Of a DNA stretch of 10,000 nucleotides, positions 1-10,000 are shown in pieces (position 1 is the stretch's first letter; every line of letters starts with the position of its first letter). Source of the stretch: Anaerolinea sp. (GTDB taxonomy: Bacteria > Chloroflexota > Anaerolineae > Anaerolineales > Anaerolineaceae); assembly GCA_020216845.1 (NCBI GenBank), contig JAIWNK010000135.1:1-10000 (forward strand), written 5' to 3'. The notes under the pieces are model-generated. The model saw only the letters and a program-made list of their open reading frames with translations. It made no database searches and was not told the origin of the DNA. The position numbers and the translations under genes were made by a program.

Positions 1-2065
1 GGAATTCCATGCCATATTTTTCGGCAAAGCCTTCAATTTGTCCATGGCCGAACATGGGCAAGCCCGGCAGGGTGGAAAGCAAGATGCAAATGCCAAAGTA
101 TTTATCGCCCTTGCCAAATTGGTCCACGGCAGTGCGTTCGTCGGGGTTGTTCATGAAGCTGACGTAGCGCTTGAGGATTTCGGGGTCAAATTCGAGGGTG
201 TTTTTGATGACGGTGCGATAATTGGCGTTATCCTCATTGCGCAGCATGTTCATGAAGGCGCTGTTGTAGACGCGGTGCATACCAAGGGTGCGGACGAAAT
301 AGCCTTCCATCAGCCAGAAGGCTTCTGCCAACAGCAGGGTGTCGGGGGCCTCTTGGGCGACGCGATCCACAACTTCGCGCCAAAATTCGGTTGGCATGGC
401 GGCGTCGAAGTCTTCTTTGGTCAGGCCATGCTCGGCGCGCGAGGGAATGTCTCCGCCGCTGCCGGGTTGTGGATACCAGAGGCGCTGATAGTGGCGTTTG
501 GCAAGTGTCATGGCGGCATCGAAGCGAATGATGGGGAAACGCCGTGCCACAGCCAAAATGGTTTGGATGACGGCTTCGCGCACTTCGGGATTGAGGTAAT
601 TGAGCTGAGCGGTGTCATTCCAGGGCATGGAGGTGCCGTCATTGCCGTGATAGATGTAGCGCACCTCGCCGGTTTGATTATCGGTGCGTTTGAAGACAAC
701 GGCGGCATCGTTGCGGGTGAAATAGTGATCTTCGATTTGAATGCGCACACGCGGGTCGGCGGAGAGGTCACCGCCTTCGAAGCTGTAGGAAGGGAAGGGG
801 CTGTAAGGCAGAGAGATGAACCAGTCGGGGTGTTCCACAACCCAAGGAGAATCAATGCCCATGTGATTGGGCACCATGTCGCTTGCCAGGCGGATGCCAC
901 GTTGCCAGGCGCGCTCGCGCAGATTGCGATAGGCCTCTTCGCCGCCCAGGTCATCGGCGATGCGGTAATCGTAGAGCGAGTAGGCCGAGGCGATGGCCTC
1001 GGGGTTGCCGCACCATTGCTTGATGGTGGCCGAGGCACGGCTGCGTTCCCATAGGCCAATAAGCCATAGGCCAGTGAAGCCCCAGCGTGCCAGGTCGTCG
1101 AGTTCCTGATCGGGGATTTGGTCGAGGTGATGGATGGGCTGATTGTATTTGCGGGAGAGCTGATCGAGCCAGACGTAGGTATTTTTGGCAATCAAAACCA
1201 GGTTGGGCATCCATTCGCGATCAGGGCTGAAGTTTTCAACCTCACCGGCGCTGCCCAGGCTCAGGGCGCTATCAAAGGTGGGAATGAGGGCCGGGCCGGG
1301 GCCAAGGAAGGGTAATTTGTTTTCTTCTTTGATGAAATCCAGGCTGCTGAGCAGGCGGTAGAGGAAACTGCCCAGCAATTCGCCCCAACGTTGACGGATA
1401 AATTCCAGCTGACCTTCAATGGAATTGGGTGAGGCCAGAGCCGGGGCGCGCAGCATATCAATGATGTGTTGGTTGTCGGGGCCAAAGCGCGGCTTTTTTT
1501 CAAAAAAGCGATAGAGTTCGGTCTGAATTTGGGTGTAAGCGGTGTTTGTGGCCAGGTTTGTATCGCTGAACAGCTCAAAGTAGGATGTTAGGGCTGGGTT
1601 TTGGTTGGCGATATATAACATGAGCATTTCTTCAAGGGCGATGGCGCGATGGCTGAGCCCTTCGCTGCTGCCAGCCAAATATTCGGCGGTGCTGAGCTGT
1701 TGCTGATAGACTGCAACGGGCGGAAATTCGTTGGTGAAGGCTTCCAGGGCGTGATTGAGGCGCTCCTTGCCCAGGGTTGCTTCGAGGGCCTGAACAGCCT
1801 CTTCGGTGACCAGGGGTGCTTTTTGCTTACGGTATGTGGCAAGAACGAGGTGGAGGATTTCGTCTAACAGACCCATGGCGTTGATTTCGCTGGCCCGCAC
1901 CGTGCGTTCGGGGAAGTTGGCAAGGTCTCGTTTTTGATTAATTTTTTGAGCAAACAGTCGGGCGGCATGGAAATTTGCAAAGATGACGTTGCCGTTGAAG
2001 CGGAACAATAGTTGATCAAATTGATAGCGATCACGGGATTGCCGCGAAACATGGAATTCGAACAT
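1..2065 (-). CDS. GH13 alpha-amylase-family glycosyl hydrolase, C-terminus cut off by window edge
   Basis: An uninterrupted minus-strand frame of 688 codons starts at ATG 2065-2063 and runs off the left edge. AGGAGG (plus-strand cctcct, 2071-2076) lies 5 bases before the ATG, which fixes the start. Catalytic-domain motifs of GH13 appear in order: YSLYDYRIADDLGG (about 362-375), region I DMVPNH (Asp396, Asn400, His401), region II IRFDAAM (Arg514, nucleophile Asp516), region III LLLAEAFW (acid/base Glu581) and region IV FMNNPDE (Asp642). The known GH13 role is cleavage or transfer of alpha-glucosidic bonds by a retaining mechanism. Region IV reads NPD where alpha-amylases usually have NHD, so a transferase or a specialised subfamily is possible. 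Residues 1 to about 310 form an N-terminal part with no domain I can name, opening with FEFHVSRQSRDRYQFD. No signal peptide is visible, so it is probably cytoplasmic. It is transcribed away from the peptide operon. The exact substrate cannot be told. Confidence 0.9.
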   Translation of the reverse strand, partial: MFEFHVSRQSRDRYQFDQLLFRFNGNVIFANFHAARLFAQKINQKRDLANFPERTVRASEINAMGLLDEILHLVLATYRKQKAPLVTEEAVQALEATLGKERLNHALEAFTNEFPPVAVYQQQLSTAEYLAGSSEGLSHRAIALEEMLMLYIANQNPALTSYFELFSDTNLATNTAYTQIQTELYRFFEKKPRFGPDNQHIIDMLRAPALASPNSIEGQLEFIRQRWGELLGSFLYRLLSSLDFIKEENKLPFLGPGPALIPTFDSALSLGSAGEVENFSPDREWMPNLVLIAKNTYVWLDQLSRKYNQPIHHLDQIPDQELDDLARWGFTGLWLIGLWERSRASATIKQWCGNPEAIASAYSLYDYRIADDLGGEEAYRNLRERAWQRGIRLASDMVPNHMGIDSPWVVEHPDWFISLPYSPFPSYSFEGGDLSADPRVRIQIEDHYFTRNDAAVVFKRTDNQTGEVRYIYHGNDGTSMPWNDTAQLNYLNPEVREAVIQTILAVARRFPIIRFDAAMTLAKRHYQRLWYPQPGSGGDIPSRAEHGLTKEDFDAAMPTEFWREVVDRVAQEAPDTLLLAEAFWLMEGYFVRTLGMHRVYNSAFMNMLRNEDNANYRTVIKNTLEFDPEILKRYVSFMNNPDERTAVDQFGKGDKYFGICILLSTLPGLPMFGHGQIEGFAEKYGMEF

Positions 2066-2099
2066 AGAATCCTCCTCGACAAGAATGGCGATCAAAAGA

Positions 2100-2128
2100 A
2101 TTATACTACAGCCGCAGATGCAGGAGCA
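2100..2128 (-). promoter_or_regulatory. Candidate promoter of the GH13 gene
   Basis: On the minus strand a perfect TATAAT lies at 2105-2100, about 35 bases before the ATG. A -35 at the usual 17-base spacing (2128-2123, TGCTCC) is a poor match, so the promoter is either weak or activator-dependent. The implied leader is about 28 bases and contains the ribosome binding site. Confidence 0.45.
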
Positions 2129-2168
2129 GCGAGAAGGGGGATGATTTGCGATCAGCAGAGAAGGGGGA
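2127..2168. repeat. Pair of near-identical 15-16 bp direct repeats in the divergent control region
   Basis: CAGC-GAGAAGGGGGA at 2127-2141 recurs as CAGCA-GAGAAGGGGGA at 2153-2168, differing by one inserted A. The pitch is about 26-27 bp. The pair lies between the GH13 -10 box and the -35 of the GntR promoter, upstream of both start sites, where an activator or second regulator could bind. Function is inferred from position only, and a chance purine-rich repeat is not excluded. Confidence 0.45.
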
Positions 2169-2187
2169 GTTTTTTAGAAATTGCCTG

Positions 2188-2216
2188 TTGACTTGGTATG
2201 TTTTTCGTGCTATGCT
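2188..2216 (+). promoter_or_regulatory. Sigma-70-type promoter of the GntR/peptide operon
   Basis: TTGACT (2188-2193) and TATGCT (2211-2216) are separated by exactly 17 bases, and TG-C precedes the -10 as an extended -10 element. Transcription would start near 2223, leaving a leader of about 40 bases before the GntR ATG at 2263. This is the only convincing plus-strand promoter I see in the window. Confidence 0.7.
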
Positions 2217-2228
2217 ATAGACATGTAA

Positions 2229-2246
2229 GATATTAGATATAATATC
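2229..2246. promoter_or_regulatory. Perfect palindrome, probable autoregulatory GntR operator
   Basis: GATATTA-GATA-TAATATC is a perfect 7-base inverted repeat around a 4-base centre. It sits roughly 6 to 24 bases after the predicted transcription start and 16 bases before the ATG of the GntR gene. GntR/FadR-type dimers bind short palindromes, and many repress their own operons from this position. It lies within an AT-rich stretch unlike the surrounding DNA. Alternatively it could form a small hairpin in the leader, but the AT-only-like stem would be weak. Confidence 0.6.
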
Positions 2247-2262
2247 ATTGATATAAAAGCCC

Positions 2263-2955
2263 ATGGATACAATCAACGATTCAGAACTTGTAACACATAA
2301 GCAACTCCGCCGTTGGGTGGCGGACCGGTTGCGTGCCGATATCCTCGAAGGCCGTTTGCGCCCAGGCGAGTGGTTGCGTCAGGAACGTTTGGCTCAAGAA
2401 TATGGCGTCAGTCAGATGCCGGTGCGCGAGGCTTTGAAGGAGCTCGTCGCCGAAGGTTTGGTGGAGCATGTGCCCTACCGCGGTGTGCGGATTGTTACCT
2501 TCACCGTGGCCGACGTGGAGGACTTATATGCCATCCGGAGTGACCTGGAAGGACGGGCGGCGCGGGCGACTGCGTTGCGCATTACACCAGAAGAGTTGGC
2601 AGAGCTGAAAGTGATGTATGAGCAAATGAAGCTGTGTCAGTCGCCGGATGATTTGCGGCGTTACCGCGAAGTCAACCGGCGGTTTCATCTCTACATCATT
2701 GCCGCCAGCAAACGCCCTTACCTGATCCGTACTCTGACCCAAATGTGGGATGTGTTCCCGACGATGTTGTGGAGCAATTTTGCGGTCACAGCGGCGCGCT
2801 CTTTGCCTGCCCGTGACCAAATGGACTGGCAAGAGCACGAGGCCATTTTGCAGGCCTTGGAACGGCATGATGGGGAAGGGGCCGAGGTGTTGATGCGCAG
2901 GCATATACAGACTGCTGGAAATGAGCTGATTGCTTTCTTGCGGGAGAACAGTTGA
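2263..2955 (+). CDS. GntR-family transcriptional regulator, FadR subfamily (FCD domain)
   Basis: This 230-residue protein has the usual FadR-group length. Residues about 12-78 form the GntR winged helix: the recognition-helix segment VSQMPVREALKELVAEGLV (about 49-67) is followed by the wing with PYRGVRI. Residues about 84-226 match the all-helical FCD ligand-binding domain. The candidate metal-binding set is Asn138, His142, His192 and His214 (the first position is often Asp). FCD regulators typically sense small carboxylates or amino-acid-like metabolites and lose DNA affinity on binding. As first gene of the operon it most likely controls the downstream peptidase and transporter genes and itself, through the palindrome at 2229-2246. 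The ribosome binding site is poor (AAAAGCCC before the ATG), consistent with low expression. Its stop codon overlaps the next start. The ligand is unknown; an isopeptide-derived amino acid is a guess from context. Confidence 0.92.
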   Translation: MDTINDSELVTHKQLRRWVADRLRADILEGRLRPGEWLRQERLAQEYGVSQMPVREALKELVAEGLVEHVPYRGVRIVTFTVADVEDLYAIRSDLEGRAARATALRITPEELAELKVMYEQMKLCQSPDDLRRYREVNRRFHLYIIAASKRPYLIRTLTQMWDVFPTMLWSNFAVTAARSLPARDQMDWQEHEAILQALERHDGEGAEVLMRRHIQTAGNELIAFLRENS

Positions 2956-3749
2956 TGGGCTTGCTGATGGCAATGGGCGGTGCAGTGGCGCTCGATGGGG
3001 CGGCGATGGCCGTCTTCCTGGATGCTTGTGCTGCGAATGGGCAGAATGTGGCGATTTTGCCGACTGCCTCGGCATTGCCGGATGCCGGCGCAGAATTGGC
3101 GGCGGTGTTGACCGAGCGCGGCCTGCGGGTGAATTTGCTGCCGGTGCATTCGCGTGAGCAGGCCAATGACCCGGAACTTGTCGCTGTGTTGCGTCAGGCC
3201 GGTGCCATTTTTATGACCGGCGGCAATCAGCTGCGTCTGACGGCTTGTTTGGGTGGCACGTTGCTACATCAGGCCATGTTGCAGGCCTGGCGGGCCGGGG
3301 CCGTGGTGGCGGGCACTTCGGCGGGGGCGGCGGTGCTCTCGGCGATCATGATTGCGTATGGTCGCTCAGGGTCGGCGCCGCGTCCCGGGCTGGCGCAGTT
3401 TGCCCCTGGGCTTGGCTTCCGTGAGGATCTGATCTTCGATCAACATTTTCGGCAGCGCAATCGTTTGGGGCGCCTGCTATACGCGTTGGCGTTCAACCCT
3501 GGCTTGTTGGGCGTGGGCGTGGACGAGAATACCGTGGCTGTTTTGGATGGGCAAATGGTGCGTGTGGTTGGGGCAGGGGCGGTGACGATTGCTGATGGTC
3601 AATCTCTGAAGGCAAACAACGTTGCAGAAATTACCAATGGGTTGGTGGCGATTAGTGGGGTCATGCTGCATGTATTAACCTCGGGCAGTGTTTTTGATGT
3701 TCAGACGCGCACGGCCAGTATTCCGGTTGTGCCTTTATCTGTGGAGTAG
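2955..3749 (+). CDS. Cyanophycinase-family serine peptidase, cytoplasmic (peptidase S51-like)
   Basis: This 264-residue protein has no signal peptide, a length close to that of classical cyanophycinases. Family motifs are in order: TGGNQ at 88-92, nucleophile motif GTSAG with Ser122, DQHF at 162-165 with His164, and GVGVDEN with Glu191. These give a full Ser-His-Glu triad of the kind described for CphB, in a glutamine-amidotransferase-like fold. CphB hydrolyses cyanophycin to beta-Asp-Arg dipeptides; relatives include dipeptidase E. The start chosen is ATG 2955, overlapping the GntR stop by one base (TGATG), with GGGAG about 8 bases upstream. An in-frame TTG directly before it is less likely. 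The coupling implies linked translation with the regulator. Because the protein appears cytoplasmic and sits next to a peptide importer, it may process imported isopeptides rather than a stored granule. Family assignment is strong, substrate is not. Confidence 0.87.
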   Translation: MGLLMAMGGAVALDGAAMAVFLDACAANGQNVAILPTASALPDAGAELAAVLTERGLRVNLLPVHSREQANDPELVAVLRQAGAIFMTGGNQLRLTACLGGTLLHQAMLQAWRAGAVVAGTSAGAAVLSAIMIAYGRSGSAPRPGLAQFAPGLGFREDLIFDQHFRQRNRLGRLLYALAFNPGLLGVGVDENTVAVLDGQMVRVVGAGAVTIADGQSLKANNVAEITNGLVAISGVMLHVLTSGSVFDVQTRTASIPVVPLSVE

Positions 3750-3870
3750 TTGCGTAGACACATTGTTCTGATGGAGGTGATTTCTTCCTGCTAATCGCTT
3801 GCATTGTTTGTAGTTGTTCCATCCATTGGGGATGGCATGTTCAACCGATTTTCTAGTTTCTGGAGGAGAA
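3750..3870 (+). other. 121-base gap and leader before the binding-protein gene
   Basis: The gap contains a short inverted repeat, CCATCC-ATTGG-GGATGG (3819-3835), with no U-run after it. I see no convincing -35/-10 pair: TTGCAT at 3799-3804 lacks a usable partner. The gap ends with the strong GGAGGAG ribosome binding site at 3862-3868. The simplest reading is an untranslated spacer within one operon, though a weak or non-canonical internal promoter cannot be excluded. Confidence 0.4.
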
Positions 3871-5604
3871 ATGAAGACGTTGAAAGGTTTATTGATGGTG
3901 GTTGTGCTGGCCTCGTTGTTGCTGAGTGCCTGCAACCAAACGCAAACGGCGACGACGGTGGCAACAAAGGCCCCCGAAGTCAAGCCGACCGAGGCTTTGC
4001 CGACCCCGGCGCCGACTGTTGACCCGAACGCGGTGCAGACGGGTGGCACGGTCATCATTGGCACCCCGCAAGAGCCGAGCGTGCTCAATCCGCTGCTGGC
4101 CTCGTCCTCGATTGAGGATGCCATTGGTTCGTTGATCATCGAAGGCCTGGTGCAGGTGGATGCAGATGGTAAGTATGCTGCTGTGCTGGCGGAAGAGCTG
4201 CCGACTGTTTCGGATGATGGCCTGGTGGTGACCTATAAACTGCGCAAAGGCGTCAAGTTCTCGAACGGGGATCCTTTCACCTGCGCGGATGTGCAGTTCA
4301 CCCTGGATGCAATTCTTTCTGACCTTTCGCAGGTCAGCACATCGGGCTATAGCGATATTGAAAAACTGGAATGCCCGGATGACTATACCGTGGTGTTGAC
4401 GTATGCGGAAGTGTATGCGCCCTATCTGCGCTTGTTCAGCTACATTCTGCCACGCGCAGCCGGTGACCTGGCGCAATTGGATAGCTGGGATTTCAACCGC
4501 AATCCGATTGGCACAGGCCCCTGGATGTTGAAGGAATGGAAAGCCGGCGATAGCATGACGCTGGTCAAGAATCCCAATTATCGCGAAGCGGGCAAGCCCT
4601 ATCTTGATCAACTCATCGTCAAGATTTTGCCAAGCCGCGAAGTGGGCATGCAGGCATTGGGCAACGGCGAAATTCATATCCTGTGGGATTTGGTGGAAGC
4701 TGACTTCCCGGCCCTGGCGCAGATGAAAGACAAGGGTGTGAGCTATGCTGGTGCGGTGACGGGCGAAAATGAGTTGTTGCTCTTCAACCTGGCTGATCCG
4801 GCGGTGGATGCTCCCGCGGACCCGGCTGCCAACCCGCATCCGATCCTGAGCGATGTGCGCGTGCGCGAAGCCATTGTTCTGGCGATTGACAAGCAATTGA
4901 TTGTGGATACCTTGCTTTCGGGCAACGTTAAGGTTGGTACAACCGTGTTGCCGACAGGGCAGTTTGCTTGCCCGCAACCACCGACGGCCTATGATGTGGA
5001 AAAAGCCAAGGCTTTGTTGGAAGAGGCTGGTTGGAAGCCCGGCGCAGATGGCATTCGTGAGAAGGATGGCAAGCGCATGAGCCTGAAGATTACGACAACC
5101 TCTGGCAACAAGCTGCGTGAACAGACCGAGCAGGTGTTGGTGGAAATGCTGCGTGAGGTTGGCATTGAACTGGTGATCGAGAATGTGCCTTCGGACGTGT
5201 TGTTTGCTGGTTGGGGTTCCAATGGTATGCGCAAGCATGGCGCCTTTGATATCTTGCTCTACACAACTGGCCCTGGCATTGATCCGGATAGCCATCTCTA
5301 CAGCAACTATCATTCTGACAATATTCCCACTGCTGAGAATGAGGGTGTGGGTGCCAACTACTCGCGCTACATCAACCCGGATGTGGATCAGTGGTTGGAT
5401 GATGCAGCGGTAATTACCAATACTGAGGCACGCCGTGAGCTGTATTGCAAGGTTGCTGAACAGCTGAACAAGGATATTCCGCGAGCGTATCTATATGAAC
5501 GGTTGCTCTTGAGTGGCTACCGTGTTGAGCTGCAAAACCTGCGGGTTTCGCCGGGCCCAAGCGATTTCACCTGGGGCTCTCAAAACTGGTGGCTTCGCAA
5601 GTAA
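3871..5604 (+). CDS. Peptide ABC transporter substrate-binding lipoprotein (SBP family 5, DppA/OppA-like)
   Basis: This is a 577-residue extracytoplasmic solute-binding protein. Residues 1-20 form a lipoprotein signal with lipobox LSAC, and Cys21 is the lipidation site. A Thr/Pro/Ala-rich linker spans about 22-55, a tether style common in Chloroflexota. The family 5 core follows. VSDDGLVVTYKLRKGVKFSNG (113-133, split here VSDDGLVV / TYKLRKGVKFSNG) is the classic N-lobe signature, and NPIGTGPWMLKEW (211-223) and LVKNPNYRE (231-239) are also typical. Cys138 and Cys168 could form a disulfide. Near the C-terminus TTGPGIDPDS occupies the place where DppA has its peptide alpha-amino-binding Asp. 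The start is ATG 3871, which has GGAGGAG 2-8 bases upstream and gives a proper signal peptide; a longer in-frame start at 3814 has neither. It would capture peptides for the two permeases downstream. A non-peptide ligand such as an opine or sugar is possible in this family. Confidence 0.9.
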   Translation: MKTLKGLLMVVVLASLLLSACNQTQTATTVATKAPEVKPTEALPTPAPTVDPNAVQTGGTVIIGTPQEPSVLNPLLASSSIEDAIGSLIIEGLVQVDADGKYAAVLAEELPTVSDDGLVVTYKLRKGVKFSNGDPFTCADVQFTLDAILSDLSQVSTSGYSDIEKLECPDDYTVVLTYAEVYAPYLRLFSYILPRAAGDLAQLDSWDFNRNPIGTGPWMLKEWKAGDSMTLVKNPNYREAGKPYLDQLIVKILPSREVGMQALGNGEIHILWDLVEADFPALAQMKDKGVSYAGAVTGENELLLFNLADPAVDAPADPAANPHPILSDVRVREAIVLAIDKQLIVDTLLSGNVKVGTTVLPTGQFACPQPPTAYDVEKAKALLEEAGWKPGADGIREKDGKRMSLKITTTSGNKLREQTEQVLVEMLREVGIELVIENVPSDVLFAGWGSNGMRKHGAFDILLYTTGPGIDPDSHLYSNYHSDNIPTAENEGVGANYSRYINPDVDQWLDDAAVITNTEARRELYCKVAEQLNKDIPRAYLYERLLLSGYRVELQNLRVSPGPSDFTWGSQNWWLRK

Positions 5605-5625
5605 GCCTTCCTGAGGAATGATTTT

Positions 5626-5668
5626 GGGAGGGGTGTTGGCGATACAAGTCGCCAACACCCGCTCTCCC
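5626..5668 (+). promoter_or_regulatory. Strong intercistronic hairpin between binding-protein and permease genes
   Basis: A perfect 12-bp stem (5631-5642 with 5649-5660, GGGTGTTGGCGA and its complement) closes a 6-base loop. Beyond a 3-base bulge (5661-5663), GGGAG (5626-5630) can pair with CTCCC (5664-5668). No U-run follows, so it is unlikely to be a full intrinsic terminator. Such structures after a binding-protein gene commonly protect upstream mRNA from 3' exonucleases or reduce read-through, which gives more binding protein than permease. That role is inferred here. Confidence 0.65.
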
Positions 5669-5703
5669 CGGCAGTACGAATTTATGACCTGAGGAGAGGT
5701 TGA

Positions 5704-6675
5704 ATGGCCGATTATTTGCTGCGCCGTTTTGTCCAGGCTTTGTTTACATTATTTGTGATCAGCATCATCATCTTTGCCCTGATCAGTTCTGTGCCGGGCG
5801 GGATTATGGCCGCCTATGAAGAAAACCCGGATATGACGCAGGCAGATCGGGAACGCATTGAGGCGAAATATGGATTGAATAAGTCCGTGCCGGAGCGTTA
5901 CCTGATTTGGCTTGGCAACCTTGCCAAAGGGGATTGGGGAAACTCGTTTGTCTCGAAGCGACCCGCAATTCAAGAAATTGCAGATCGTTTGCCGAACACC
6001 CTGATTTTGATGGGCGTGGCGTTTGTGGTCACCTTGCTGATTGCCATTCCCTTGGGGGTCTATTCGGCGTTGAGGCAATATTCGTTCTTTGACCATGTGA
6101 TGACGACGATTGCTCTGGCTGGTCAATCGTTGCCGGTGTTTTGGTTTGGGCTTTTGTTGATCATTTTATTCAGCGTGTTGTTGAAACAGCCCAATGGCGC
6201 GCCGCTTTTGCCTAGTTCGGGCATGTACACGCCCGGGGTAGAGCGGACGTTTGCAGATCTGGTGCGACACCTGGTGTTGCCGGTGACGATGTTGGCGCTT
6301 GTTTCCGCTGCGGGCTATATGCGCTATATGCGGTCTTCGATGCTGGAAGTGATTCATCAGGATTATGTGCGCACGGCGCGCGGCAAGGGCTTGCCGGAGA
6401 AGACGGTCATCTTCCGTCATGCGTTGCGCAATGCACTCATCCCGATTGCAACGTTGATTGGATTGGATTTGCCCTCACTGTTTGGCGGGGCTTTGTTCAC
6501 CGAGACCATTTTTGCCTGGCCGGGGATTGGACGGCTGTATTTTGATGCCGCGCTGAAAACAGATTATCCGGTCATTATGGCCGTGTTGATGATTTTTGCG
6601 GCGTTGATCATCCTTTCAATGCTGCTGGTAGATGTGGTCTATACCTTTCTTGACCCGCGCATTTCTTTATCCTAA
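5704..6675 (+). CDS. Peptide ABC transporter permease, DppB/OppB type
   Basis: This 323-residue inner-membrane protein has about six membrane segments (roughly 9-30, 100-120, 134-158, 188-206, 246-264, 290-313). The large external loop after the first helix contains YGLNKSVPERYLIWLGNLAKGDWG (split: YGLNKSVPERYL / IWLGNLAKGDWG), a DppB-type hallmark. The cytoplasmic EAA loop that docks the ATPase is about 222-247 (VRTARGKGLPEK through RHALRNALIP). ETIFAWPGIGRL (267-278) and the C-terminal DPRI (317-320) are also typical. GAGGAG (5691-5696) lies 7 bases before ATG 5704. It pairs with the DppC-type permease that follows to form the pore fed by the upstream lipoprotein. Confidence 0.93.
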   Translation: MADYLLRRFVQALFTLFVISIIIFALISSVPGGIMAAYEENPDMTQADRERIEAKYGLNKSVPERYLIWLGNLAKGDWGNSFVSKRPAIQEIADRLPNTLILMGVAFVVTLLIAIPLGVYSALRQYSFFDHVMTTIALAGQSLPVFWFGLLLIILFSVLLKQPNGAPLLPSSGMYTPGVERTFADLVRHLVLPVTMLALVSAAGYMRYMRSSMLEVIHQDYVRTARGKGLPEKTVIFRHALRNALIPIATLIGLDLPSLFGGALFTETIFAWPGIGRLYFDAALKTDYPVIMAVLMIFAALIILSMLLVDVVYTFLDPRISLS

Positions 6676-6685
6676 GGAGGGTGAG

Positions 6686-7591
6686 ATGAAACAGTTGTCG
6701 CCCAAAAAACAAGATGCGCGGCGTTCGTTGTGGCAGGTGTTTTGGCATCAATTTTTCAAGCATCGCATGGCGGTGGTGGGGGCCGTGACGATGGTGGTGA
6801 TTGTGATCCTGGTGGTTGGTGCTCCGCTGTTTACCCGCTATACACCGTTCAAGCAAGATTTGCGCAATCGTTTTGACCCGCCTTCAAGTCAGCATTGGAT
6901 GGGGACGGACGATTTGGGGCGCGATTTGTGGACGCGCGTGCTGTATGGTGGGCGTATTTCGCTTTCGGTTGGGCTGCTTTCGATGGCGGTGGCGGTCGTC
7001 ATTGGCACGGTGATCGGGCTGGTTTCGGGTTATTTTGGCGGTTGGGTGGATGCAGTGTTTTCGCGGCTGACGGAGATTTTTCTCTCGGTGCCGCGTTTGT
7101 TTGTGCTGTTGGTGCTGACTACTTTTTTGCGTCAGGCCAAGATTCCGGGAATTCAGCCCGGTTCGTTTTGGCCGATTGCGTTGGTGATTGGTGCTTTGGC
7201 CTGGATGAGTGTGGCGCGCCTGGTGCGTGGCACGACGCTGGCGATGCGTGAGCGTGAATTTGTGCAGGCAGCGCGCATGATTGGGGCAACGGATGGCCGC
7301 ATTTTGTTTCGGCATATTTTGCCGAATGTATCTTCGCCAATCATTGTGGCGGCAACGTTGGGGTTGGCCGGGGCCATCATTACCGAGTCTGGACTTTCTT
7401 ATTTGGGGTTTGGTGTGCAGTTGCCAACGCCGACTTGGGGCAATATGCTGAGCAATACACAAAGTCAGATGTTGACGGCACCATGGACAGCAATTTTCCC
7501 CGGGATGATGATCTTCATTGTTGTGATTGCAATCAATTATTTGGGCGATGGTCTGCGTGATGCGCTAGACCCGCACCATGTTGAGAAATGA
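6686..7591 (+). CDS. Peptide ABC transporter permease, DppC/OppC type
   Basis: This 301-residue membrane protein has the OppC-type N-terminal segment (about 15-50, first membrane helix 29-48). It is followed by HWMGTDDLGRDLWTRVLYGG (70-89), diagnostic of DppC-like permeases, and four or five further membrane segments. The EAA loop is at about 191-214 (EFVQAARMIGATD through RHILPN). ESGLSYLGFGV (234-244) and the C-terminal GDGLRDALDP (287-296) are family signatures. The start is ATG 6686, with AAGGAGG (6674-6680) 5 bases upstream; that site overlaps the stop codon of the preceding permease gene, which suggests coupled translation. An earlier in-frame ATG inside the previous gene is rejected for lack of a binding site. 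Its own stop overlaps the next gene's start. No ATPase gene follows, which is unusual for this transporter type. Confidence 0.93.
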   Translation: MKQLSPKKQDARRSLWQVFWHQFFKHRMAVVGAVTMVVIVILVVGAPLFTRYTPFKQDLRNRFDPPSSQHWMGTDDLGRDLWTRVLYGGRISLSVGLLSMAVAVVIGTVIGLVSGYFGGWVDAVFSRLTEIFLSVPRLFVLLVLTTFLRQAKIPGIQPGSFWPIALVIGALAWMSVARLVRGTTLAMREREFVQAARMIGATDGRILFRHILPNVSSPIIVAATLGLAGAIITESGLSYLGFGVQLPTPTWGNMLSNTQSQMLTAPWTAIFPGMMIFIVVIAINYLGDGLRDALDPHHVEK

Positions 7592-9648
7592 ATATGACGA
7601 AGAAATTTTGGCTTGTCCTGTTGATTTTGGTGGGGCTGATGGCAGGCGGGTTGAACCGGTCAGCGGCGCACGCGCAACAGTCGGTGCAGCGTTGGTTGGC
7701 ACCGATCGGCGGTGGCTATGCGGATGTGTATGCTGGCTATTGCGCCCGTGTGGTCTCGCTGGCGCGCAACAATCAGGTGAATATCCTTGTCTTGGGCATG
7801 ACGTATTCGACCAATGCGCAAAGCATTACCGAGGCGGAGCGGCAGGTCAATCTGCGCGATGCGGAAGAGCGGCGCTTTCAGGTGGAACAGGCCTGTCAGC
7901 GTGCTGCGCCTGCGGGGGTGACTTCTCGGGCGGTGCTTGCACCAATTTTTACCCGCAGCGATGCCATGGATGAGCAGCAGGTTCGCCAATATTTTTCGGA
8001 TGATTTGACCGCGGTTTTCTTTCTCGGTGGTGATCAGAAAGTGGCCATGCAAGTGATTGCCGGCACGCCGCTTGAGGCGGCTTTGCAGGCCGCCTATGCG
8101 CGCGGGGTGGCGATTGGCGGGACGAGCGCGGGCAGCGGGTTGCAGGCGGCTACCATGTTGGCCGATTACAACCCGAATTTTGCAGCTGATAACGCACTGG
8201 ATTTTGGCGCACCAGAGGTGTGGAACACGGCGGAGCGACATGGTTTGCCTTTTGGGCTGCAGGCAGCAATCCTTGATCAGCATTTTCAACAACGCGGGCG
8301 GATTGGACGCTTGCTGAACGCGCTTGCTTTGCCAGACGTGCCGCATGTAGGCGTTGGCGTGGATGCATATACTGGCGTGTGGGTGGCGGATGAAACCCGT
8401 TTGCAGGATGTGTTTGGTCTGTATGTGGTGACAATCCTAGATGAAGAGACTTATCATGCAGCACAGGGGGTGCGCTATGTTGGCAAGGATCATACGCTGA
8501 GCTTGCGCAATGTGTTGGTGCATTTGCTGGCGCCGGGTGACTTTTCTTATGATTTGCAAAGCAGGCAACATTCGTTGCAGCCTGCGCCAACAACCTTGCA
8601 GCGTGATTTTGCTGCTCTGCGCGCACCGGTTGGGGCGGGGCCGTTGTTCGTGGGGGGAAATTTGACCGGCCAAAAGCTGCAGCATCCGGCCGTGCAGCAA
8701 TTTTTGCAAGCCGCGGGTGGGGATCAGGCGCAGCTGCTGGTGGTGGCGGTTGGCTATCCTTCGCAACGGTCAGCGCTGACTGCTGCTGAGGAGATTTTGA
8801 AGGCCTGGGGGGGCAAAGGGCAGGCGTTGGCGCTGATGCCGGGTGAGATATTGACGATTCCGGCAGAGAGCACCGGTGTGTGGGTCATTGGCAAAGACCA
8901 ATCGCTGGTTGAGCCGATGGGCTTGTTGGCGCTTGCCGAAGCCTGGCGCGCTGGCAAACCCTTGCTGATGGATAATGCCGCTGCTGCGTTGGCGGGCAGT
9001 TTTTATTCTGCCCATCCGCCTACACCGCGCGAGTCGGAGCAAGCTGAGGTGGCAACGCAAGGGGCGTTTTTGGCTGGGCGAACTCGTTTGCAGCCTGGGT
9101 TGGGGCTAGTGCCGGCTTGTTTTGAGCCGCAGCTACTCAATGACAATCGGGTGGGGCGCATGTTCTCGCTGGCCTACAACCATCCAGAATTGGTGACGTT
9201 TGCGCTGATGCAAGATGCAGTGATTGTGGTGACCGACACGGGGGCGCAGGTGCTGGGCGAAAATGCGGTGCTGGCTTTGGATTTGCGGCAGGCAACGCTG
9301 GCGCTGGGTGACAATCAGGGTTTTGTGATTGCCAATGGCCTGTTGGATGTGTTTGCTCCGGGAGATGCGATTGAGGCGCTCTCTGTGGAAGAAGCGACAC
9401 AACGCACGCCGCAGCCGACGCCTGAGCTGGTTTTGCCAACAGCAACTGCGACCATCACTGCAACCACGGCAGCAACGTTGACTGCAACCGCTCAGCCAAC
9501 CGCTGCATTACCAACCCCAACGACAGCTGCTGTTGCAACAGAGCAACCCGCCTCGCAAGGCAAGTTGCCGAGCTGGGGGTTGTGGGTTGCCGGTGCTTTT
9601 TTGGCGGGGGTGTTGGCCTATTGGGTGCTGCGGCGGCCCAAGCGTTAG
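7588..9648 (+). CDS. Exported, membrane-anchored two-domain cyanophycinase-like protein
   Basis: This 686-residue protein is far longer than single-domain cyanophycinases. Residues 1-29 form a signal peptide with a likely cut after AHA. Domain 1 (about 35-330) carries GGDQ (147-150), GGTSAG with nucleophile Ser180, and DQHF with His232. GVGVDAYT has Ala260 where the cytoplasmic homologue has the catalytic Glu. Domain 2 (about 350-600) repeats the fold: AWRAG then DNAAAALAG aligns with the nucleophile motif but has Asn463 for Ser, Gln515 sits in place of His, and Gln542 in place of Glu. A Thr/Ala/Pro stalk (about 605-658), a membrane helix (about 663-681) and RRPKR at the end form a C-terminal anchor, placing both domains outside. 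ATG 7588 overlaps the permease stop (ATGA). ATG 7594, two codons later, has slightly better spacing from GAG at 7583-7585. Likely roles are extracellular cleavage or binding of cyanophycin-like isopeptides for import. Fold is confident; activity is uncertain. Confidence 0.88.
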   Translation: MNMTKKFWLVLLILVGLMAGGLNRSAAHAQQSVQRWLAPIGGGYADVYAGYCARVVSLARNNQVNILVLGMTYSTNAQSITEAERQVNLRDAEERRFQVEQACQRAAPAGVTSRAVLAPIFTRSDAMDEQQVRQYFSDDLTAVFFLGGDQKVAMQVIAGTPLEAALQAAYARGVAIGGTSAGSGLQAATMLADYNPNFAADNALDFGAPEVWNTAERHGLPFGLQAAILDQHFQQRGRIGRLLNALALPDVPHVGVGVDAYTGVWVADETRLQDVFGLYVVTILDEETYHAAQGVRYVGKDHTLSLRNVLVHLLAPGDFSYDLQSRQHSLQPAPTTLQRDFAALRAPVGAGPLFVGGNLTGQKLQHPAVQQFLQAAGGDQAQLLVVAVGYPSQRSALTAAEEILKAWGGKGQALALMPGEILTIPAESTGVWVIGKDQSLVEPMGLLALAEAWRAGKPLLMDNAAAALAGSFYSAHPPTPRESEQAEVATQGAFLAGRTRLQPGLGLVPACFEPQLLNDNRVGRMFSLAYNHPELVTFALMQDAVIVVTDTGAQVLGENAVLALDLRQATLALGDNQGFVIANGLLDVFAPGDAIEALSVEEATQRTPQPTPELVLPTATATITATTAATLTATAQPTAALPTPTTAAVATEQPASQGKLPSWGLWVAGAFLAGVLAYWVLRRPKR

Positions 9649-9658
9649 TTAGCGGAGG

Positions 9659-10000
9659 TTACTCGGCGCGCAGGATGTGGGTGATGATGTTTGAGCCGCT
9701 GCCGCCGATGTTTTGGGCCATGCCAATGCGCGCCCCTTCCACCTGGGTGCCATAGGCTTCGCCGCGCAGTTGTTGGACGACTTCAACGATTTGGTAGATG
9801 CCGGTTGCACCAACAGGGTGACCGCGTGCTTTCAGCCCGCCGCGCGTGGCTATTGGAATGCGCCCGGTTGGGCAAATTTCGCCATCCAGCGCCAGGCGCA
9901 CGCCCTGACCAGGCTCAGCAAAGCCGCAGGCTTCCAAAGAAAGTGCCGCCATGATGCTGAAGGCATCGTGTGCTTCAAAGACATCAATATCTTCTGGGCC
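9659..10000 (-). CDS. SCP2-type thiolase (acetyl-CoA acetyltransferase family), C-terminal part only
   Basis: The frame enters from the right edge at base 10000 and gives the last 113 residues. EAHDAFSIMAALSLEACGF matches the HDAF segment of SCP2-type thiolases (NEAF in classical thiolases). GGLKARGHPVGATG carries the catalytic His of the GHP motif. The classical C-terminal CxG with the second active-site Cys is replaced by QNIGGSGSN, as is usual for SCP2-type and archaeal-type members. The nucleophilic Cys of the N-terminal half is outside the window. The family joins or cleaves acyl-CoAs, and some members act in multi-protein acyl-CoA pathways. The stop (9661-9659) is 10 bases from the stop of the convergent operon, and no terminator hairpin is visible between them. 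It is functionally unrelated to the peptide genes as far as can be seen. Confidence 0.9.
   Translation of the reverse strand, partial: GPEDIDVFEAHDAFSIMAALSLEACGFAEPGQGVRLALDGEICPTGRIPIATRGGLKARGHPVGATGIYQIVEVVQQLRGEAYGTQVEGARIGMAQNIGGSGSNIITHILRAE

Follow-up and report, generated by a model that had tools for sequence, protein, structure and literature searches.

Introduction

Bacterial scavenging of cyanophycin has so far been described in two forms, one relying on a secreted enzyme and the other on loci that include an isoaspartyl dipeptidase. For the latter, the excerpted text of PMC10206079 gives 52 genomes that encode a cyanophycinase together with IaaA or IadA but lack cphA1, in 45 of which the genes are clustered, often with transporters; the same excerpt names scavenging loci in strain L21-Spi-D4 and in Flammeovirga pacifica, and says that in Firmicutes and Bacteroidota the isoaspartyl dipeptidases have yet to be identified. 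Here we describe a stretch of 10,000 nucleotides from Anaerolinea sp. (contig JAIWNK010000135.1, positions 1 to 10,000; hereafter the window), in which a plus-strand run of six genes (2263-9648) encodes a transcription regulator, a CphB-like peptidase, the binding protein and two permeases of a peptide-type importer, and an exported protein with two peptidase S51 domains. We regard it as roughly an even chance (probability about 0.5) that these genes constitute an operon under local control for scavenging isopeptide oligomers, most likely cyanophycin fragments released by other microbes, the identity of the substrate as cyanophycin being something we infer. The operon suggests a route other than those described to date, namely import of oligomers followed by cytoplasmic cutting, together with a surface protein of the same enzyme family that lacks the full catalytic triad. 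No account of this operon was found among the open-licence papers retrieved, as judged from titles and abstract openings.

Results

The second gene of the operon encodes a cytoplasmic S51 protein that passes the cyanophycinase model TIGR02069 (212.2 bits; cut-off 126.6), matches the PepE model weakly (26.7 bits), and retains both the Ser-His-Glu triad and the pocket residues Q101, D172, Q173, R178, R180 and R183, which the excerpted text of PMC3235067 identifies as the triad and critical pocket of cyanophycinase. Among 120 homologues listed from 7698 matches, Ser132, Asp172, Gln173, His174, Arg180, Arg183 and Glu201 are invariant, while Gln101 and Arg178 are kept in 117/120 and 116/120, respectively. 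Names such as Anaerolineae and Chloroflexi among the homologues suggest a Chloroflexota origin. An earlier, sequence-only reading of the window had anticipated this peptidase, within one operon of six same-strand genes that includes a local GntR regulator and a peptide importer, and these assignments stand: all six genes are present where that reading placed them, and their Pfam content in order is GntR plus FCD, Peptidase_S51, SBP_bac_5 (the family 5 binding protein), two copies of BPD_transp_1, and Peptidase_S51. The six genes form one operon.

The same reading had placed a cyanophycinase-family protein on each side of the membrane, a view that calls for correction at the outer protein. The exported protein is an S51 relative that passes the cyanophycinase model at 133.5 bits (against the same cut-off of 126.6), but its residues do not support calling it an ordinary cyanophycinase: the triad acid is absent from domain 1, and both Ser and His are absent from domain 2. 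The sequence-only reading had reported neither this second domain nor the changes at the catalytic positions. A hydrophobic N-terminal helix (residues 2-24), seen in the sequence and in the model, is followed at the far end of the modelled chain by a Thr/Pro-rich stretch modelled with low confidence (617-661) and then by a helix at the C terminus (662-681), features that fit a predicted exported and membrane-anchored protein. Across 134 relatives, domain 1 retains Ser and His together in 117 and carries Ala at the acid position in 119, and Ser, His and Glu occur together in none of them. Gly replaces the nucleophilic Ser in 15 rows, and in these members catalysis has probably been lost altogether. 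Cys103 is invariant in all 134 rows, and its possible partner is either Cys113 (126 rows) or Cys52 (eight rows) but never both, which might represent a switched disulfide.

Comparison of gene order across relatives, put forward with the sequence-only reading as a check on it, showed the set to be conserved. Genomes, contigs and fetched loci are labelled here with G, C and L numbers, respectively, G000 being the genome of the window. The order of regulator, CphB-like enzyme, binding protein, two permeases and tandem protein is whole in G000, G027, G073 and G469; it is the same in G289, where the regulator is split between contigs C5 and C22, and in G377, where the operon is split between C441 and C425. 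As this order recurs across other genera and families with a conserved promoter and operator, we consider the operon to be more than a chance arrangement. In G073 the operon is followed downstream by DppD and DppF genes and then directly by an MFS_2 transporter gene (L029 3825-5171, minus strand). Partial arrangements also occur: three genomes, G021, G065 (C657) and G433, have a CphB-like gene next to importer genes but no tandem gene there, with ATPases also present in G433; G021 keeps the regulator together with the CphB-like, binding-protein and permease genes, and the exported protein used as a query matched only the CphB-like gene in that genome. Conversely, in G434 the regulator and the tandem gene stand with genes for the binding protein, the permeases and ATPases, and at E 1e-15 no CphB-like gene was matched separately. 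Of 101 relatives searched, four (G000, G027, G073 and G065) carry the exported protein at full length, and a cut-off of E 1e-60 gives 16 carriers among 396 genomes of the class, counting the window's own. In G226 a tandem S51 gene that otherwise stands alone has OppC remnants (L064 11608-11834) immediately 5' of it, which look like what is left of a decayed importer part. A further contig scan returned one locus, a Caldilineaceae CphB-like gene, at which no other operon gene was matched.

Regulation of the operon appears to be local. The sequence TTGAC stands ahead of a palindromic operator in 10/10 upstream regions compared, and the 15-base operator core, allowing up to three mismatches, has two overlapping matches in the window, both at the operator, against 0.04 expected. 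Six of the ten genomes searched (G000, G021, G065, G073, G469 and G377) hold one exact copy each; every one of these precedes this GntR gene, and no other exact copy exists in the ten. A copy with one mismatch lies beside the N-terminal part of the regulator in G289, and the detached tandem gene of G065 is immediately preceded by elements of its own, namely TTGAC, a box resembling -10 and an operator with one mismatch; a further one-mismatch site, in G433, has no operon gene nearby. The GntR/FCD protein is the likely binder of the operator (2229-2246), and the location of this site, immediately 3' of the -10 box, suggests a repressor. The one match in G000 outside the operon, with two mismatches (C152:9168), falls within a reading frame resembling metallo-beta-lactamase, 5' of the PF06089 gene described below, and was taken as chance.

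The importer resembles oligopeptide systems. Structure matches of the lipoprotein include 8efz (165.1 bits), AppA 1xoc (161.5 bits) and E. coli DppA 1dpe (55.9 bits), which puts it closer to AppA than to DppA. The OppC-type permease scores just over the cut-off of the Opp4C model, and OppB falls below the cut-off of both Opp2B (290.9 bits) and Opp4B (273.8 bits); the lipoprotein likewise reaches no Opp4 cut-off. No ATPase genes are present in the window operon; a G000 DppD that is 69% identical to the DppD of the G073 operon is encoded on C21, within the cluster of another importer, and ATPase sharing with an importer encoded elsewhere is possible.

The sequence-only reading had also suggested a search for cphA and for isoaspartyl dipeptidase genes. 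No cyanophycin synthetase exceeded the family cut-off in any of five genomes (G000, G027, G073, G021 and G065), the best cphA1 match in G000 scoring 107.8 bits against a cut-off of 850 in an assembly of 75.73% completeness and 0.92% contamination. As neither IaaA nor IadA was found in this assembly, we name a PF06089 (asparaginase II) protein as a candidate isoaspartyl dipeptidase. Its gene is divergent from the regulator in G027 (L028 5935-6984, minus strand) and G073 (L029 14745-15851, plus strand), which belong to two families, and a relative in G000 (67% identical) lies on C152, a contig separate from the operon. PF06089 failed as a marker of the operon, being present in 51/396 class genomes, among them each of the 11 listed from the family of the window, and 10 of those 11 have no tandem protein at E 1e-60. 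It thus tracks kinship, so that co-occurrence in a genome is uninformative; the one suggestive point is its position next to the operon in G027 and G073. An M55 D-aminopeptidase (L035 3576-4397) is encoded on the same G000 contig as the PF06089 gene.

Features of the operon are collected in Table 1. The ATG codons of the CphB-like gene (2955) and of the exported-protein gene (7588) overlap the stops of the regulator and OppC genes, respectively, and further starts read from the DNA are ATG 3871 for the lipoprotein and ATG 6686 for OppC. Between the lipoprotein and permease genes, the intergenic stretch 5605-5703 folds at -47.5 kcal/mol (z -5.09; 0/200 shuffles as good), and the hairpin it contains may lower permease expression relative to the lipoprotein. 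We place the end of the operon at 9648 because the flanking genes, an alpha-amylase-like gene upstream (2-2095) and the C-terminal end of a thiolase downstream (9659-10000), are both on the minus strand. The alpha-amylase-like neighbor has a relative in G031 that is 73.5% identical (L033 2838-6293, minus strand) and likewise has an S51 gene at a distance of about 2 kb (L033 8290-9129, plus strand), the latter scoring 105.1 bits, below the cyanophycinase cut-off.

Table 1. Features of the operon and its control region (positions in the window).
Feature	Position	Strand	Basis
Sigma-70-type promoter: TTGACT 2188-2193, 17-base spacer, TATGCT 2211-2216	2188..2216	+	sequence
Palindromic operator GATATTAGATATAATATC, just 3' of the -10 box	2229..2246	.	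predicted GntR/FCD site, from conservation
GntR/FCD transcription regulator	2263..2955	+	PF00392 72.9 bits, PF07729 99.3 bits
Cytoplasmic CphB-like S51 peptidase, Ser-His-Glu triad complete	2955..3749	+	TIGR02069 and residues
Family 5 solute-binding lipoprotein, lipobox LLSAC	3871..5604	+	PF00496 285.7 bits
Stable hairpin, 12-base stem and 6-base loop	5631..5660	+	fold of 5605-5703
OppB-type permease	5704..6675	+	PF00528 154.9 bits
OppC-type permease	6686..7591	+	Opp4C 350.9 bits, cut-off 350
Exported, membrane-anchored tandem S51 protein	7588..9648	+	Pfam, NCBIfam, sequence, model
Domain 1, residues 34-331: S51 fold, Ser180 and His232 kept, Ala260 at triad Glu position	7687..8580	+	
Domain 2, residues 338-592: S51 fold, without Ser and His, pocket arginines 521 and 524 kept	8599..9363	+	
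C-terminal helix, residues 662-681, putative membrane anchor after Thr/Pro-rich stalk	9571..9630	+	model, sequence

Discussion

In the mechanism that we propose, the GntR/FCD regulator would bind the palindrome past the -10 box, a site pointed to by its conservation, and block transcription until a pathway metabolite appears. The anchored tandem S51 protein would capture polymer at the cell surface, and its residues point to slow cutting or next to none. Short oligomers would then, as the protein families suggest, be imported by the lipoprotein and the permease pair with the power of ATPases encoded elsewhere, upon which the cytoplasmic CphB-like enzyme, to judge from its residues and family, would convert these oligomers to beta-Asp-Arg dipeptides. 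A further enzyme, for which the PF06089 protein is the candidate, would then split the dipeptides. The sequence-only reading had ordered these events as breakdown to dipeptides outside the cell, uptake, and processing inside, a sequence which is awkward because surface breakdown to dipeptides would leave the cytoplasmic cyanophycinase with nothing to cut. Import of oligomers fits better, being consistent with an inner enzyme that is intact and with an importer that resembles Opp4/App.

Several observations weigh against scavenging of cyanophycin oligomers by this operon. The best match of the cytoplasmic protein in the Protein Data Bank (PDB) is 7uqv (170.7 bits, versus 134.5 for 3en0), an entry titled pseudo-CphB and reportedly inactive on cyanophycin. 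The window protein is 40% identical to 7uqv versus 36.7% to Synechocystis CphB, 89/120 listed homologues are likewise nearer to 7uqv, and Asp158 of Synechocystis CphB is replaced by Gln, the Asp not being among the residues counted in those 120. The expected isoaspartyl dipeptidase is also missing: no IaaA was found in four of the five genomes searched (G000, G027, G073 and G065), a match being present in G021 only, and no IadA exceeded the cut-off in any of the five. With respect to the importer, the lipoprotein scores 193.5 bits against NikA, which is below the cut-off of 393 and slightly above its Opp4A score. Importer genes adjoin the tandem gene in only 4 of the 15 other class genomes that have it (G377, G289, G469 and G434), and 10 of the 15 have none beside it, five of these (G333, G183, G206, G371 and G211) holding the tandem gene on a contig of less than 8 kb; the tandem protein therefore also occurs alone. 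The operator site of the G027 operon has two mismatches, that of G434 is absent from the listed matches at up to two mismatches, with related repeats seen by eye only, and at this tolerance the ten genomes yield 53 pattern matches versus 38 for a reversed-pattern control, for which reason we place weight only on sites with no more than one mismatch.

Two alternatives deserve consideration alongside the proposed mechanism. Tentatively, the exported protein of the same operon may be a true but slow hydrolase, in which the Ser-His dyad of domain 1 cuts polymer to importable oligomers and domain 2 binds. Ser and His are indeed kept together in 117/134 rows, and in the S51 peptidase MccG, according to the excerpted text of PMC9239234, replacement of the triad Asp by Ala substantially decreased protection from Yersinia pseudotuberculosis-type McC, whereas replacement of Ser or His by Ala abolished it; such a role is nevertheless harder to reconcile with Ala at the acid position in 119/134, with the lack of any row combining Ser, His and Glu, and with the Gly found for Ser in 15. 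We give similarly guarded credence to a substrate other than cyanophycin, such as another beta-aspartyl or aspartate-rich oligopeptide, with both S51 proteins belonging to a cyanophycinase-like side branch. This would accord with pseudo-CphB as the nearest solved structure, with the lack of IaaA or IadA, and with the difference at position 158, but the cytoplasmic protein keeps all critical residues named in the excerpt of PMC3235067 and scores 212.2 bits to the cyanophycinase model, and its counterpart in the G073 operon matches pseudo-CphB (159.3 bits) and true CphB (159.6 bits) about equally.

Two further explanations were rejected. Turnover of the cell's own cyanophycin store is very improbable: a cytoplasmic CphB-like enzyme would suit it, yet no synthetase exceeds the cut-off in 5/5 genomes (the window's own assembly being 75.7% complete), and the importer and exported protein would be left without a role. 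It is scarcely credible that the operon, in the manner of MccG, detoxifies imported peptide-nucleotide antibiotics and serves no nutrient route. S51 peptidases of the MccG type do confer such resistance, but the excerpted PMC9239234 assigns MccG to S51 clade V and Synechocystis CphB to clade IV; the cytoplasmic protein of the window matches the cyanophycinase model and, only weakly, PepE, and a dedicated importer would raise exposure to the antibiotic. We set this idea aside as weak.

Returning to the scavenging of oligomers, a more elaborate version is speculative and on balance unlikely. The exported protein could be a surface receptor derived from a duplicated cyanophycinase, in which domain 2 has lost catalysis and kept its pocket, domain 1 is weakening, and the two together grip the ends of the polymer for an oligomer importer, which in turn supplies the intact inner enzyme; PF06089 would then be the missing isoaspartyl dipeptidase, treating beta-Asp-Arg as a substituted asparagine.

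Conclusions

The operon offers a clean test case for whether a cyanophycinase that has lost its triad can serve as a binding protein, and carries a warning that cyanophycinase annotation of the exported family rests on the fold and two of three catalytic residues. For the missing isoaspartyl dipeptidase, the PF06089 candidate encoded next to the operon in G027 and G073 provides a concrete lead.

Among characterized proteins, Synechocystis CphB (3en0, 7uqw) shares with the product of the second gene the triad, the named pocket residues and a TIGR02069 score over the cut-off, but the two differ in overall identity and at Asp158, as noted above. The pseudo-CphB of Pseudobacteroides cellulosolvens (7uqv), the best PDB sequence match for both S51 proteins of the window, is in contrast to the exported one a single-domain chain, of 275 residues. 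CphE, the secreted cyanophycinase of Pseudomonas, is likewise an exported member of the cyanophycinase group; it is encoded by one gene of 1260 bp and keeps Glu251 (PMC3235067, as excerpted), whereas the exported protein of the window combines a pair of S51 domains with an anchor and lacks the Glu. The binding lipoprotein with OppB- and OppC-type permeases resembles the Opp4/App oligopeptide importer, from which the operon departs in lacking ATPase genes and in the sub-threshold Opp4 scores of the lipoprotein and OppB. As in the cyanophycin utilization loci of the excerpted PMC10206079, a cyanophycinase-family gene is found next to those of a transporter, and the genome gave no cphA1 match over the cut-off; unlike them, the window operon has no clustered IaaA or IadA gene, employs an Opp/App-type ABC importer, and further includes a GntR operator and a tandem S51 protein at the cell surface. 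The window operon is, in sum, a variant of the known cyanophycin scavenging loci.

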